Assembly (NCBI RefSeq): GCF_029027965.1
Contig: NZ_CP119082.1
Location: 1,902,001-1,966,000 of the forward strand
DNA from: Paracoccus sp. S3-43
GTDB lineage: Bacteria > Pseudomonadota > Alphaproteobacteria > Rhodobacterales > Rhodobacteraceae
Length of the DNA: 64,000 bases
Reading direction: 5' to 3'
How positions within the stretch are numbered: position 1 is the stretch's first letter; every line of letters begins with the position of its first letter. A program made the translations under genes and the position numbers. The notes below the pieces were generated by a model. That model had not been told where the DNA came from, made no database searches, and saw only the letters and a program-made list of their open reading frames with translations. This document shows positions 42,416-51,770 of this stretch, one piece after another.

Positions 42416-44971
42416 ATGATCGATCTTAACGATGTCGGCACGCCGAAAGCACGCCACGATCTGGCGGCCGTAAAGGACCGGCTGGCGGCGACAGCTGGCG
42501 ACTGGCTCCCCGGCATCTTTCCGGAGGCGCGGCTTGCGCGCGACCGTCGTTCCTTGCGCTGTGCCGACCTGTCCGGCCGCCCGCCGCGCAAGGAGGGGTC
42601 GTGTACCATCCACCTTGACGGGCCCTATGCGGGCTGGGGCTTCGACTATGCCACCGGCGAAAGTGCCGGACCGATCGACCTCATCGCGCAGGCGACGGGG
42701 CTCTGCGATGGCGCGCTCTTCGACGAGGCGGCGCGGATTGCCGGGATGGATCATCCCGCGCCCCGAAACGCGCCACGCGCGAAGCCCGATCATACCGGCG
42801 AGATTGCCCGGCTGGTCGATGGCGCGCAGCCGATCGCTGGCACCCCCGGCGAAACCTACCTCCGCACCCGCGGCCTTGCCGATCCGGGATGCCCGGATCT
42901 GCTGTTCCACCCCGACCTGCCGGATTTCGACACGCGACGCGGTTGGCCGGGGCTGATCACATTGCCACGCCTGGTGGATGGCACTCGCGCGCAGGGTATT
43001 CACCGGACCTTCCTGCTCGACGACGGCTGCGCCAAGGGCCCGGCCGGGAAGAAGATGCTGGGATCGGTAGCGGATGCGGCCGTGCGCCTGTTCGCCATGC
43101 CTGCGGACGGCCACCTTGGCATCGCTGAAGGCATCGAGACGGCATTGGCAGCACATGCCCTGTTCGGCACCGCCGTCTGGGCGGCGCTCTCTGCCGATGG
43201 TCTCGCGCGGTTTCAGTGGCCGGCGGGCACGACACGGGTCACGATCTACGCCGATGCTGGCGATGCCGGACGTCAGGCTGCCGCGTCCCTTTCGGATCGG
43301 CTGAACCGGGCCGACATTCCGAACCAGATCGTGCTCCCGCTGCATGGCGATGATTTCAACGACGATCTGATGCGCGGGGCGCGTGCGGCCGACTATCGCC
43401 CGGAGATTTCGGCCGACGAGCCGGTCGGTATTGAGGCATCGACGACAGTAGCAGATCCGACGCCTGGCGATCCGGACGTTCTGATTGCCGCCGCCGAGGC
43501 GCTGACCAACCCGCCCGAACTCGCCGCGCTCTCCAGCCTTCTCGGCCGCCTTGCGCTTGCCCGGCTCGATCCGCTGCCCGAACGCCAGATCCTTGCCCGG
43601 ATCAAGACTGCGACCGGCATCTCCATGTCCATCCTCGACAAGCAATTGACGGAACTGCGCCGCCGCGTGCATGCGACGGGCGATCCGCAGGGCAGGATTG
43701 CGCGTCCCGCCTGGTTTGGGCGGCTGTGTCAGGATCTGTCCGGCACGCCCGAGCGCAACGAGGCCAATGTGATCATCGCCCTGTCCTCGGATCCGGTCTT
43801 TGCCGGTCTCCTGGCCTTCGACGAGTTCGCCCAATCCATCGTGGTACGCCAGCCGCTGCCCTGGGATGACCCGGCCATTCGCTTTCCGCGCCCCTGGGAC
43901 GATGCAGACGATGTGCGCACCGCCGAATGGCTGCAGTTGCGCGGGCTCAACGTCGCCCCGATGGTCGTCAGCCGGGGTGTCGGCGCGGTGGCCCGCGACC
44001 TGCGCATCCATCCGGTTCGCGACTGGCTCGACACCCTGAAATGGGACGGCACGCCCCGTATCGAGACCTGGACCAGCACCTACCTCGGTGCAGCGCCGAC
44101 ATCCTTCCATCACACCATCGGCGCGCTCTGGCTGATCTCGGCCGTGGCCCGGATCTACCGGCCCGGGGTGAAGGCCGACCACATGCTGATCCTCGAAGGG
44201 CCGCAGGGCGCGCGCAAATCCACTGCGATCAAGGTGCTCGCGGGCGAGGATTGGTTCACCGACGAGTTGCCCGAGCTTGGGTCCAAGGACGCGGCCATTC
44301 ACATGCAGGGCGTATGGATTGTGGAAATCGCCGAACTCGACGCCATTGGCCGCGCCGAGGTCTCGCGCATCAAGGCGTTCCTGACCCGCACCACCGACCG
44401 CTTCCGGCCGCCCTATGGCCGCTACACCGTCGAGGTTCCCCGCCAGTGCGTGTTCGCAGGCACTGTGAACCCCGACACCTATCTACGCGATGAAACCGGC
44501 AACCGCCGCTTCTGGCCGCTACGCTGTGGAAGCATCGACATCGCAGCGCTGGCCCGCCACCGGGACCAGATCTGGGCCGAAGCCGTCCACCGTTTCCGCG
44601 AAGGCGCGATTTGGTGGATCGACGATCCGGCGCTGCTTGCCGAAGCCGCCGCCGCGCAGGAGGCGCGCTATCAGGCCGATGCCTGGGACGCCCGTATCGA
44701 CCGCTGGCTGACCCACGACACCCGCAGCGTCAATCGCGGTCACGCGGGCTGGGATGATTGGCAGGATGAAGAGTTCGAACGTCCCGAGCCGATCCGCGAT
44801 GTGTCGGTGGGCGAAATCCTCGAAGGCGCGCTCGGCATCGAGCCCGCGAAATGGACCAAGGGCGACCAGATGCGTGTGGGGGCCTGGCTGAAGTCGCGGG
44901 ATTGGGAGCGATACCGCAGCGGCGCGGCCCCGACCCGCGAATGGCGTTACCGCCGGTTGCAGCACGGCTGA
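42416..44971 (+). CDS. Toprim primase fused to VapE-family helicase
   Basis: An 851-residue bifunctional replication protein. The N-terminal part has a Toprim fold: GIAEGIETALAAHALFG (catalytic Glu, about 237) and TIYADAGDAGRQAAA (DxD, about 275). No CHC2 zinc motif is evident, though CADLSGR...GSCTIH may replace it. The C-terminal VapE P-loop domain shows LILEGPQGARKSTAIKVLAG (about 592-611), IWIVEIAELD-type Walker B, and CVFAGTVNPDTYLRDETGNR. Such fusions initiate phage or satellite replication at an iteron origin. The GTCCCAC array lies 66 bases after the stop. Confidence 0.9.
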   Translation: MIDLNDVGTPKARHDLAAVKDRLAATAGDWLPGIFPEARLARDRRSLRCADLSGRPPRKEGSCTIHLDGPYAGWGFDYATGESAGPIDLIAQATGLCDGALFDEAARIAGMDHPAPRNAPRAKPDHTGEIARLVDGAQPIAGTPGETYLRTRGLADPGCPDLLFHPDLPDFDTRRGWPGLITLPRLVDGTRAQGIHRTFLLDDGCAKGPAGKKMLGSVADAAVRLFAMPADGHLGIAEGIETALAAHALFGTAVWAALSADGLARFQWPAGTTRVTIYADAGDAGRQAAASLSDRLNRADIPNQIVLPLHGDDFNDDLMRGARAADYRPEISADEPVGIEASTTVADPTPGDPDVLIAAAEALTNPPELAALSSLLGRLALARLDPLPERQILARIKTATGISMSILDKQLTELRRRVHATGDPQGRIARPAWFGRLCQDLSGTPERNEANVIIALSSDPVFAGLLAFDEFAQSIVVRQPLPWDDPAIRFPRPWDDADDVRTAEWLQLRGLNVAPMVVSRGVGAVARDLRIHPVRDWLDTLKWDGTPRIETWTSTYLGAAPTSFHHTIGALWLISAVARIYRPGVKADHMLILEGPQGARKSTAIKVLAGEDWFTDELPELGSKDAAIHMQGVWIVEIAELDAIGRAEVSRIKAFLTRTTDRFRPPYGRYTVEVPRQCVFAGTVNPDTYLRDETGNRRFWPLRCGSIDIAALARHRDQIWAEAVHRFREGAIWWIDDPALLAEAAAAQEARYQADAWDARIDRWLTHDTRSVNRGHAGWDDWQDEEFERPEPIRDVSVGEILEGALGIEPAKWTKGDQMRVGAWLKSRDWERYRSGAAPTREWRYRRLQHG

Positions 44972-45036
44972 CATCGCAATGGCCCTGTCAGGCATCGAAG
45001 GGGCATCCATCCGGGTGCCCCTTTTCGTTTGTCGCT

Positions 45037-45306
45037 GTCCCACTTAGCGGCGTGTCCCACTTCAAGCCCAAGGTGGGACAGAAAAAACCATTTGAAATCA
45101 ATCCTGTCCCACATGTCCCACTTGGACCGCCAACTTCTCTCTTTCCCATATGGAGCGCATGTGTCCCCCCCCGACCTCATTCTTCCTCATGCGACGTAGG
45201 GAAAGAGGTGGGTCAAGTGGGACAGGTGGGACACGCCTTGTTTTGAAAGGAAAATCTGGCGTCCCACTTTGATCGGCAAGTGGGACAACCCGAGACCAGG
45301 TGGGAC
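45037..45306. repeat. Array of ten GTCCCAC/GTGGGAC heptamers
   Basis: Exact heptamers start at 45037, 45054, 45073 (inverted), 45106, 45115, 45217 (inv), 45226 (inv), 45261, 45280 (inv) and 45300 (inv). Degenerate copies lie at 45163 and 45208. Most extend to TGTCCCACTT or its complement. Several form close direct pairs spaced 9 bases apart (45106/45115 and 45217/45226), about one helical turn. The 435-base gap between primase and resolvase genes (44972-45406) holds nothing else. An origin with iterons, or a regulator array, is likely. Confidence 0.8.
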
Positions 45307-45406
45307 AGAAGCATCGTCTGGCGCATTTTTCTTGAATGGGTGCGCGTGTCATGATTCTCTGCCCATGACCAAAGCCGAAGGCCCACGTTTCAGGTGAGCC
45401 TTCAAC

Positions 45407-45928
45407 ATGACGCCGACCACCCAGACTGCGGATCTGCACCTCGAACAGGGGCGCCTTTCCACGTCCTGCATCCTTGCCCTCGACCTCGGGACAACGACAG
45501 GTTGGGCCTTGCGTGGCCATGACGGCCTGATCACCTCTGGCACGATGTCCTTTCGCCTCGGGCGGTTCGACGGCGGCGGTATGCGGTATCTTCGCTTCAC
45601 CAACTGGCTGACCGAGGTCGACCGGCTATCAGGCCCCATCGCTGCGATCTGGTTCGAGGAAGTCCGCCACCATGTCGGAACGGACGCTGCCCATGTCTAT
45701 GGCGGGCTCATGGCCACGCTCACGGCATGGGCTGAACTCCGCGGAATCCCCTATGAGGGCGTCCCGGTCGGCACGATCAAGCGTCACGCCGCTGGCAAGG
45801 GCAACGCCGACAAGGCCGCGATGATCGCCGCCATCCGCGCCCGCGGCTTCAGCCCGGCCGACGACAACGAAGCCGACGCCATCGCCATCCTGCTCTGGGC
45901 GATCGAGACGAAGGGAGGTGTCGCATGA
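45407..45928 (+). CDS. RuvC-like Holliday junction resolvase
   Basis: A 173-residue RNase H-fold nuclease of the phage RuvC type. ILALDLGTTTGWALRGHDG carries the first Asp (about 26), IAAIWFEEVRHHVGTDAAHV the Glu (about 84), YEGVPVGTIKRHAAGKGNAD is a basic loop, and DDNEADAIAILLWAIET holds the final acidic pair. It would resolve recombination or replication intermediates before packaging. It begins 100 bases after the heptamer array. Overlaps the next gene by four bases. Confidence 0.87.
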   Translation: MTPTTQTADLHLEQGRLSTSCILALDLGTTTGWALRGHDGLITSGTMSFRLGRFDGGGMRYLRFTNWLTEVDRLSGPIAAIWFEEVRHHVGTDAAHVYGGLMATLTAWAELRGIPYEGVPVGTIKRHAAGKGNADKAAMIAAIRARGFSPADDNEADAIAILLWAIETKGGVA

Positions 45929-50619: not shown

Positions 50620-50919
50620 ATGTCGAGACGCAGGAACCACGATGCGGCGTTCAAGGCGCGTGTGGCGCTGGAAGCCGTGAAGGGGGAGCGCACAGTGTCA
50701 GAGCTGGCCGCCGAATATGGCGTGCATCCGACGATGATCCATCAATGGAAACGGTCGCTTCTGGAGGGTGCCGCAGGGATCTTCGAGCGGGGCGGCAAGG
50801 CTGCGGCAGCGGCCGAGGTTGCCGAAGAAACTGTCCGTGACCTGCACGCCAAGATCGGAGAGCTGGCCGTCGCCAACGATTTTTTGTCACGAAAGCTCAA
50901 GCCCTGGATCGGCAAGTGA
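50620..50919 (+). CDS. IS3-family transposase OrfA (copy 2)
   Basis: A 99-residue protein with the same sequence as the copy at 25441-25740: HTH LAAEYGVHPTMIHQWKRSL and a zipper-like tail. Start 80 bases inside the IS end with GGAGAA before the ATG. It overlaps OrfB by four bases; frameshifting normally produces the fused transposase. Confidence 0.93.
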   Translation: MSRRRNHDAAFKARVALEAVKGERTVSELAAEYGVHPTMIHQWKRSLLEGAAGIFERGGKAAAAAEVAEETVRDLHAKIGELAVANDFLSRKLKPWIGK

Positions 50920-51770
50920 GGCGCGGAATGGTTGAGAAGAACCACCCAAGCCTGTCGGTCGGGGCGCAGTGCCGCCTGCTATCGATCTCGCGGTCGTCGT
51001 TCTATTACGCGCCGCAGGGCGAGACGGCGATGAACCTCGACCTCATGCTGTTGATCGACAAGCAGTTCCTGGATACACCCTTCTACGGCGTGCGGCAGAT
51101 GACGTGGCACCTGCAGAACGAGGGGCATGGTGTGAACCAGAAACGCATCCGGCGGCTGATGCGGCTCATGCGCCTGATGCCGATCTACCAGAGGCCCAAC
51201 ACCAGCAAGCCGAGAAAAGGCCACAAGACCTATCCCTATCTGTTGGGCGGGCTGCGGGTGGATCGGCCCGGTCAGGTCTGGTGCGCAGATATCACCTATT
51301 TGCCGATGCGGCGGGGCTTTCTGTATCTGGTGGCGATCATGGACTGGTTCACCCGCAAGGTGCTGGCCTGGCGGATATCGAACACGCTGGAGGCCGACTT
51401 CTGCGTCGAGGCGCTGAACGAGGCCATCCATCGCTTCGGCGCGCCCGGGATCATGAACACGGATCAGGGCTCACAGTTCACGTCCTTCGCCTGGACTGAT
51501 CGGCTGAAGCGCATTGGCACTCGGATCTCGATGGACGGCAAGGGGCGCTGCATCGACAACGTCTTCATCGAGCGTCTGTGGCGATCCCTGAAGTATGAAT
51601 GCGTCTACCTGCACGCCTGGGAAACGGGATCGCAGGCCAAGGTTGGTATTGGGCACTGGATCAACTTCTACAACCATCGACGACCCCACACTGCCCATGG
51701 CGGGCAGCCGCCCGCCGTGGTCTACTTCAACAGCAGCGAAACCGATCAGCAGGCACAGGCAGTAGCTTAA
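50916..51770 (+). CDS. IS3-family transposase OrfB (copy 2)
   Basis: A 284-residue integrase-core protein with the same sequence as copy 1. Catalytic residues are Asp in VWCADITYLPM, Asp in IMNTDQGSQFTSF and Glu in FIERLWRSLKYE. Intact, so mobility is likely. Confidence 0.93.
   Translation: MRRGMVEKNHPSLSVGAQCRLLSISRSSFYYAPQGETAMNLDLMLLIDKQFLDTPFYGVRQMTWHLQNEGHGVNQKRIRRLMRLMRLMPIYQRPNTSKPRKGHKTYPYLLGGLRVDRPGQVWCADITYLPMRRGFLYLVAIMDWFTRKVLAWRISNTLEADFCVEALNEAIHRFGAPGIMNTDQGSQFTSFAWTDRLKRIGTRISMDGKGRCIDNVFIERLWRSLKYECVYLHAWETGSQAKVGIGHWINFYNHRRPHTAHGGQPPAVVYFNSSETDQQAQAVA

Follow-up and report, generated by a model that had tools for sequence, protein, structure and literature searches.

Self-loading helicases accompanied by downstream iterons are a known kind of replication system. 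In a published account (PMC7581432), the C-terminal domain of the Rep protein of Staphylococcus aureus pathogenicity islands (SaPI) recognizes iterons directly downstream, apparently as two hexamers; DUF927 helicases (Cch and SaPIbov1 Rep) and D5-like helicases are named among the self-loading helicases, and Cch2 is reported with three short iterons. Here, we describe a related arrangement in a 64,000-nucleotide stretch of the Paracoccus sp. S3-43 genome (contig NZ_CP119082.1, positions 1,902,001 to 1,966,000), referred to below as the window and numbered from its first letter. Downstream of a gene for an 851-amino-acid Toprim-VapE primase-helicase, exactly ten copies of GTCCCAC/GTGGGAC, in both orientations, lie within 270 bp (45037-45306). 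A first-pass annotation, made from the letters alone, gave this same count, which an exact search bears out, and suggested either a replication origin of the prophage or element, or dense binding by a phage regulator. Our comparison of related loci supports that proposal, and covariation between site and protein points to the neighboring primase-helicase as the reader. We consider the array to be, in all likelihood, a prophage replication origin.

Site words and primase residues change together

Among 115 distinct loci, obtained by removing duplicates by the last 300 residues of the primase, two C-terminal residues follow the letters of the site. At position 834, every one of the 84 loci whose word is of the GTCCC type has Arg or Lys, and every one of the 21 with GTCAC has Gln; this residue thus sorts all 105 scored loci by GTC[C/A]C. 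At position 815, CAC goes with Lys (46 of 46 loci) and CAAC with Arg (59 of 60), which sorts 105 of 106. For its own site feature, each of the two residues ranks first among about 650 columns of the primase. Ten of the 115 loci were left out for GTC[C/A]C, having no clear letter or no C-terminus (L332, L334, L335, L336, L338, L339, L340, L345, L347 and L358), and nine for CAC/CAAC (L254, L274, L320, L321, L332, L334, L338, L345 and L347). Arg-to-G and Gln-to-A are textbook contacts, and the covariation suggests which amino acids of the primase read which letters of the site.

Three rules were written down before a second collection, of genomes, was opened. The same DNA underlies some of the viral and some of the genome contigs; proteins identical to those of the first set over the last 400 residues were excluded from the second collection, in which close but non-identical copies remain. 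In this collection alone, the 834 rule holds in 47 of 47 loci and the 815 rule in 49 of 52. As preset, the first rule gave 28 loci with Arg and C and 12 with Gln and A, with no exception; seven further loci with Lys834, all with C, were grouped with Arg afterwards, which brings the count to 47. The second rule was preset as helix words, GAWLKSR with CAC and SAYLKANG or SGYLKKxG with CAAC, and turns on residue 822, which in the second collection is Gly in 17 CAC and four CAAC loci and Ser, Ala or Thr in 29 CAAC and two CAC loci. Residue 815 was chosen from the pooled scan, so its 49 of 52 is not a blind result.

On a tree of primase residues 1-740, from which the C-terminus was excluded, a minimum of 11 changes is needed for one site feature and of 17 for the other, which indicates that the covariation is not one inherited coincidence. 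The joint score reaches at most 0.30 and 0.37 for five linked proteins, compared to 0.69 and 0.87 for the primase. Because the site word and two residues of its winged helix change together, the primase-helicase itself very probably reads the sites.

Several observations weigh against this conclusion. Related loci tend to have the same word: the tree shows 11 and 17 changes, compared to 19 and 34 with shuffled labels, and the loci are therefore not independent. By a laxer measure, how much of the site entropy a residue explains, one position in the RuvC-like protein encoded beyond the array reaches 0.80 for CAC/CAAC in the 66 scored loci, compared to 0.93 for residue 815, which makes the control for this feature less clean than that for GTC[C/A]C. 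One locus, L319, violates the 815 rule, as do L338 and L347 if their clusters are real arrays. The third preset rule, Lys832 with CCCTAC, failed (four of nine Lys832 loci; two CCTAC loci have Arg).

A dyad of eleven sites in the window

The array lies in the gap between the stop of the primase gene (44971) and the start of the RuvC-like gene (45407), beginning 66 bp past the primase stop codon. An eleventh copy, decayed to GTGGGTC, is intact in many relatives, so that the array comprises 11 sites. Their orientations run ++-++ to the left and (-)--+-- to the right of a dyad at about position 45171, and the ten exact copies alone (++-++ --+--) are their own mirror image. This dyad symmetry, absent from the first-pass annotation, is the main feature of the array. 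Spacing of one helical turn, which that annotation had described for some sites, is only an approximation, the tandem pairs being 9 bp apart and the other close neighbors 17-20 or 33-35 bp. Most copies share the wider word TGTCCCACYT.

GTCCCAC occurs 15 times in the window, the five copies outside the array being single and scattered. This total is only mildly high (shuffle mean 8.5; at least 15 in 3 of 100 shuffles); what matters is the clustering. In 60 first-order Markov simulations of the window, no 270 bp held more than three copies, compared to the ten observed, by which chance clustering is rejected; outside the array no heptamer exceeds six per 270 bp, and the window has no second GTCCCAC cluster. 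A genome-wide count, which had been suggested as a check, found only the array to be dense: in 3.22 Mb, TGTCCCACNT occurs 20 times and a reversed control pattern 22 times, with nine of the 20 in the array and the other 11 scattered, each more than 1.5 kb from any other. The tight pair TGTCCCACNTGTCCCAC is present in only four of 125 genomes of the genus, and these two counts led us to reject a repeat of the host genome. One other close direct GTCCCAC pair occurs genome-wide, at 88153. Among the matches listed in a first scan, many of the single pairs were due to chance, and a nucleotide search of the array against phages returned only a short, chance-like match to two Gordonia phage Gsput1 records (E 0.4).

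Relatives keep the layout and change the word

Of 80 related viral loci, 75 have enough sequence past the primase. At least six GTCCCAC copies lie downstream of the primase in 21 of these, and for the 75 loci together GTCCCAC has a density of 5.2 per kb past the primase, compared to 0.05 per kb elsewhere in them. The heptamer is absent past the primase in 49 of the 75, where best-segment primase identity to the window is 66-96%. Absence beside homologous primases had been named in advance as refuting the origin proposal, a misleading test, as many of these 49 loci carry the same array in another word. When the search was made blind to the word, 63 of 77 loci, most of them taken with longer flanks, yielded an array (the second-ranked cluster in L225). 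Of 80 loci from named genomes, 67 gave a cluster of some kind, several of these lacking the usual layout. The words include GTCCCAC, GGTCCCAC, GGCCCCAC, NCCCTAC, GTCACCAC, GTCACCAAC and GTCCCAACC, among others.

For most words the spacing map is close to +0 +17 -37 +70 +79 in one half and -171 -180 -189 +224 -243 -263 in the other; arrays in the GTCCCAACC group follow a map akin to it, +0 +18 +29 -50 +84 +103 and -148 -204 +250 -270 -291. Mean dyad symmetry is 0.65 (104 arrays), compared to 0.38 with orientations shuffled and 0.35 with positions randomized, and the most frequent division, in 57 of 104, is into one half of five sites and one of six, whichever comes first. In 94 arrays, AT content has a peak in each half, in the stretch that separates inner from outer sites, and is also elevated at the center; its mean is about 0.62 at 76-90 bp from the center and about 0.37 beyond the ends of the array. 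The figures for symmetry, AT and spacers (n = 104, 94 and 100) come from arrays that span about 240-300 bp and have 8-13 sites, or 9-13 in the case of AT and spacers, a size filter that favors regular arrays.

The array is downstream of the primase in all 115 distinct loci and upstream in none, a position that fits an origin. It lies less than 150 bp away in 52 loci, 150-1000 bp in five and at least 1 kb in 58. These positions are those of the top-ranked cluster (second-ranked for L345 and L359), counted anew on the distinct loci after an earlier tally of 130 arrays, which held duplicates and a few irregular clusters. Inserted genes separate the displaced arrays from the primase in all ten cases examined, and the layout is unchanged where 1-6.5 kb of cargo intervenes.

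The regularity has its exceptions, which count against the origin proposal. No array was found in 14 of the 77 and 13 of the 80 loci searched, some of which end at contig ends and others of which have several kb of flank. Exactly 6+6 sites occur in only 5 of 104 arrays, and the halves in the window hold five and six sites, one decayed.

Relatives with CCCAACC or GTGTCACC arrays carry reverse-strand cargo between primase and array: IetA/IetS pairs (L303:9618-13341 and L247 by PADLOC, L236 by the same look), Lamassu LmuA/LmuB (L326:11137-15009) and an SbcC/SbcD-like pair (L302:9898-14108). This gap looks like a hotspot for defense genes inside the replication module. The primase of L212/L136 (IMGVR_UViG_2724679705_000007) matches that of the window at 94% over residues 540-750, 49% over 750-800 and 64% over 800-851, and five CCCAACC words lie 1.8-2.1 kb downstream, where a stricter search found no array; this has the appearance of a joint exchange of C-terminal domain and site word. 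About 2.8 kb (L338) and about 2.5 kb (L347) past primases with Gln834 are GGTTTCCACC clusters in another layout, which may be another element or another array type. In L049, a locus with no match to the window primase, fourteen GTCCCAC copies in one orientation at 9-21 bp spacing (994-1161) are a different kind of repeat.

The primase-helicase and its C-terminal winged helix

Pfam assigns VapE-like_dom (4.8e-83), Toprim_3 (2.2e-26) and DUF7146 (6.8e-21) to the 851-amino-acid protein, and its PHROG match is a DNA helicase/primase. In sequence comparison, a single solved protein, 7PDS with its six chains, matches the helicase core (E 1e-46). A full-length AlphaFold2 (AF2) model was poor (mean predicted local distance difference test score, pLDDT, 52) and served only to pick the C-terminal part. 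The model of residues 752-851 has pLDDT of about 90 over residues 792-831 and 76-77 beyond, with helices at 798-805 and 815-827 and strands at 830-835 and 842-847. VIA-align places 7PDS, a VapE-type hexamer with double-stranded DNA, as the nearest solved chain to the winged-helix model, tied with general winged helices; identity to the primase in the C-terminal domain is about 8-12%. Against this assignment, Foldseek returned no solved structure for the winged-helix model at E <=0.001. The primase has its closest named relatives in genomes of Rhodobacteraceae, including Paracoccus, and 1,024 phage records match it.

The surrounding genes, for a Sak4-like annealing protein, a Cas4-like exonuclease, a Dda-like helicase and a terminase, are those of a tailed prophage. 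Between methyltransferase genes and the terminase, two adjacent frames (50620-51770) resemble, judged by eye, an IS3-type transposase pair. Features of the array and its gene are collected in Table 1.

Table 1. Positions in the window of the array, the primase-helicase gene and the features assigned to them
Feature	Position	Strand	Basis
Toprim + VapE-like (AAA+/SF3-type) primase-helicase, 851 amino acids, proposed initiator	42416..44971	+	Pfam, PHROG and 7PDS match
C-terminal winged helix (residues 795-851), proposed site reader	44798..44968	+	AF2 model; site-residue covariation
K815 codon; first residue of the presumed recognition helix; Lys (CAC sites) or Arg (CAAC sites)	44858..44860	+	46/46 and 59/60 loci
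R834 codon; residue in the first wing strand; Arg or Lys (GTCCC sites) or Gln (GTCAC sites)	44915..44917	+	84/84 and 21/21 loci
Intrinsic-terminator-like stem, closing the primase operon ahead of the array	44997..45024	+	Consensus scan only
Site 1, GTCCCAC	45037..45043	+	Exact match
Site 2	45054..45060	+	Exact match
Site 3	45073..45079	-	Exact match
Left AT-rich tract	45082..45102	.	Sequence; AT peak here across 94 aligned arrays
Site 4	45106..45112	+	Exact match
Site 5, 9 bp from site 4	45115..45121	+	Exact match
Site 6, decayed GTGGGTC, in register 9 bp ahead of site 7	45208..45214	-	Sequence; relatives
Site 7	45217..45223	-	Exact match
Site 8	45226..45232	-	Exact match
Right AT-rich tract, mirroring the left tract	45238..45256	.	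Sequence; aligned arrays
Site 9	45261..45267	+	Exact match
Site 10	45280..45286	-	Exact match
Site 11	45300..45306	-	Exact match

Arrays beside other helicases and in cultured phages

Exact-word scans found GTCCCAC arrays of similar size adjoining DUF5906 helicases (L014, L016, L066, L085 and L089); that of L089 is a near-perfect 6+6 dyad, and in that of L066, also 6+6, the register of the inner set is slightly off from that of the outer set. Such arrays also adjoin helicases with DUF927 and HTH_56 (Pfam; L012, L026, L081 and L111), where all orientations are flipped in three of the four and L111 is irregular. These loci were picked by GTCCCAC itself and so give no measure of how frequent arrays are among such helicases. 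Protein searches from two loci of these types returned only six and three loci, with no array in L366 and L367.

Nine cultured phages encode distant VapE proteins, and in six of them a repeat array lies past the gene. Arrays of 7-mers are found in Marinobacter PS3, Staphylococcus phiSP15-1, Corynebacterium Dina and Paenibacillus Jacinda, by a criterion that none of 69 control segments passed; two Pseudomonas phages, which look alike, have a 6-mer array by a criterion used without a control. None of the nine stretches lists an annotated origin. Two results here weigh against the origin proposal: only the Marinobacter and the two Pseudomonas arrays are laid out like that of the window, and Variovorax VarioGold, Phocaeicola BM127P2 and Lactococcus 1358 have no clear array.

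Discussion

The origin proposal, with the neighboring Toprim-VapE primase-helicase as initiator, very probably accounts for the array. According to this proposal, each half-array, of five or six sites, would gather one hexamer via the winged helices of its subunits. We lean toward two opposed hexamers at the array, which would melt the AT-rich tracts, load themselves and depart in opposite directions for bidirectional replication, with the Toprim domain of the same protein making the primers.

The alternative that survives best, though we consider it improbable, is that the array is an operator through which the primase or another phage protein controls its own operon or the RuvC-like gene. 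Its position between the terminator-like stem and the next gene would suit an operator, and covariation tells who binds rather than for what purpose. However, 10-12 sites, a conserved dyad of 240-300 bp and AT-rich tracts far exceed the needs of an operator, and the layout persists when cargo separates it from the primase. In addition, a weak scan of 44900-45450 found no forward sigma-70-like promoter.

Still harder to sustain is a partition, recombination or packaging site for another phage protein, for which there is very little room. The array does adjoin the RuvC-like resolvase gene, and the RuvC-like residue mentioned above tracks CAC/CAAC fairly well. Even so, all five neighbors score well below the primase, and for GTC[C/A]C none comes near it; with the caveat of that residue, another phage protein as reader is rejected on the joint score. 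An equally slight chance attaches to the repeats acting as structure, a nested RNA hairpin or DNA cruciform: the plus-strand RNA folds at -133.5 kcal/mol, compared to -90.1 for shuffles (z -8.0), because any inverted array must fold so, and spacers show 33% mirror complementarity, compared to 25% expected (39% and 28% before masking other sites), but this is far below the near-complete pairing of a stem (100 arrays), no Rfam family reaches threshold, and covariation with protein residues is left unexplained; low spacer pairing and the Rfam result led us to reject RNA structure.

Returning to the origin proposal, it seems to us an even question whether a dyad of about 12 sites, six per hexamer, constitutes one general class of phage origin shared by VapE, DUF5906 and DUF927 helicases across several bacterial phyla. 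If so, the geometry would be largely fixed while the word drifts in step with a few winged-helix residues, and the origin, together with the helicases able to share it, would be predictable from sequence. With close to six sites per half, the layout opens the two-hexamer loading model to direct testing.

VapE proteins are common in phages and bear the uninformative name "virulence-associated protein E"; they now have a likely DNA target and place of action, and the array offers a means of locating origins in phages. The repeated joint changes of residue and base within one protein-DNA pair are natural data on how winged helices read DNA, and the array also informs how an initiator and ten of its sites co-evolve. 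In the openly licensed literature, partially surveyed, we found no account of the conserved dyad, the residue-base code or the reach across helicase families.

Comparison with known replication systems

The first-pass annotation had likened the locus to P4-like and plasmid primases. This comparison is loose. The alpha protein of phage P4 is a primase-helicase fusion that binds repeats via its C-terminal domain, and P4 uses a second element, crr, away from ori; the fusion is common to both systems, whereas one array is present here. The iterons of RepA/Rep_3 plasmids are mainly direct repeats in one orientation, in contrast to the mixed-orientation dyad of this array. The origins of SV40 large T antigen and papilloma E1 accommodate two hexamers on a symmetric set of short sites. 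These proteins bind their origins via an N-terminal domain (PMC7581432), unlike the initiator proposed here, whose predicted binding domain is C-terminal.

The closest match is a self-loading helicase with its origin as found in SaPI and in staphylococcal cassette chromosome mec (SCCmec). The helicase of the window is of the AAA+/SF3 type of the VapE, D5 or DUF927 kind, as judged by VapE-like_dom and 7PDS, and its iterons are directly downstream. The structure 7PDS, titled "Similar to D. nodosus vapE" and containing six chains and double-stranded DNA, is PriRep1, which presumably originates from SaPI5. Like SaPI Rep-ori and SCCmec Cch/Cch2 (PMC7581432), the locus combines a hexameric helicase with downstream iterons, and here too recognition by the C-terminal domain is predicted and two hexamers are proposed. 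Unlike them, it has a Toprim-VapE fusion in tailed prophages, and 10-12 sites in mixed orientations that form a conserved dyad, with a residue-base code that extends across hosts.
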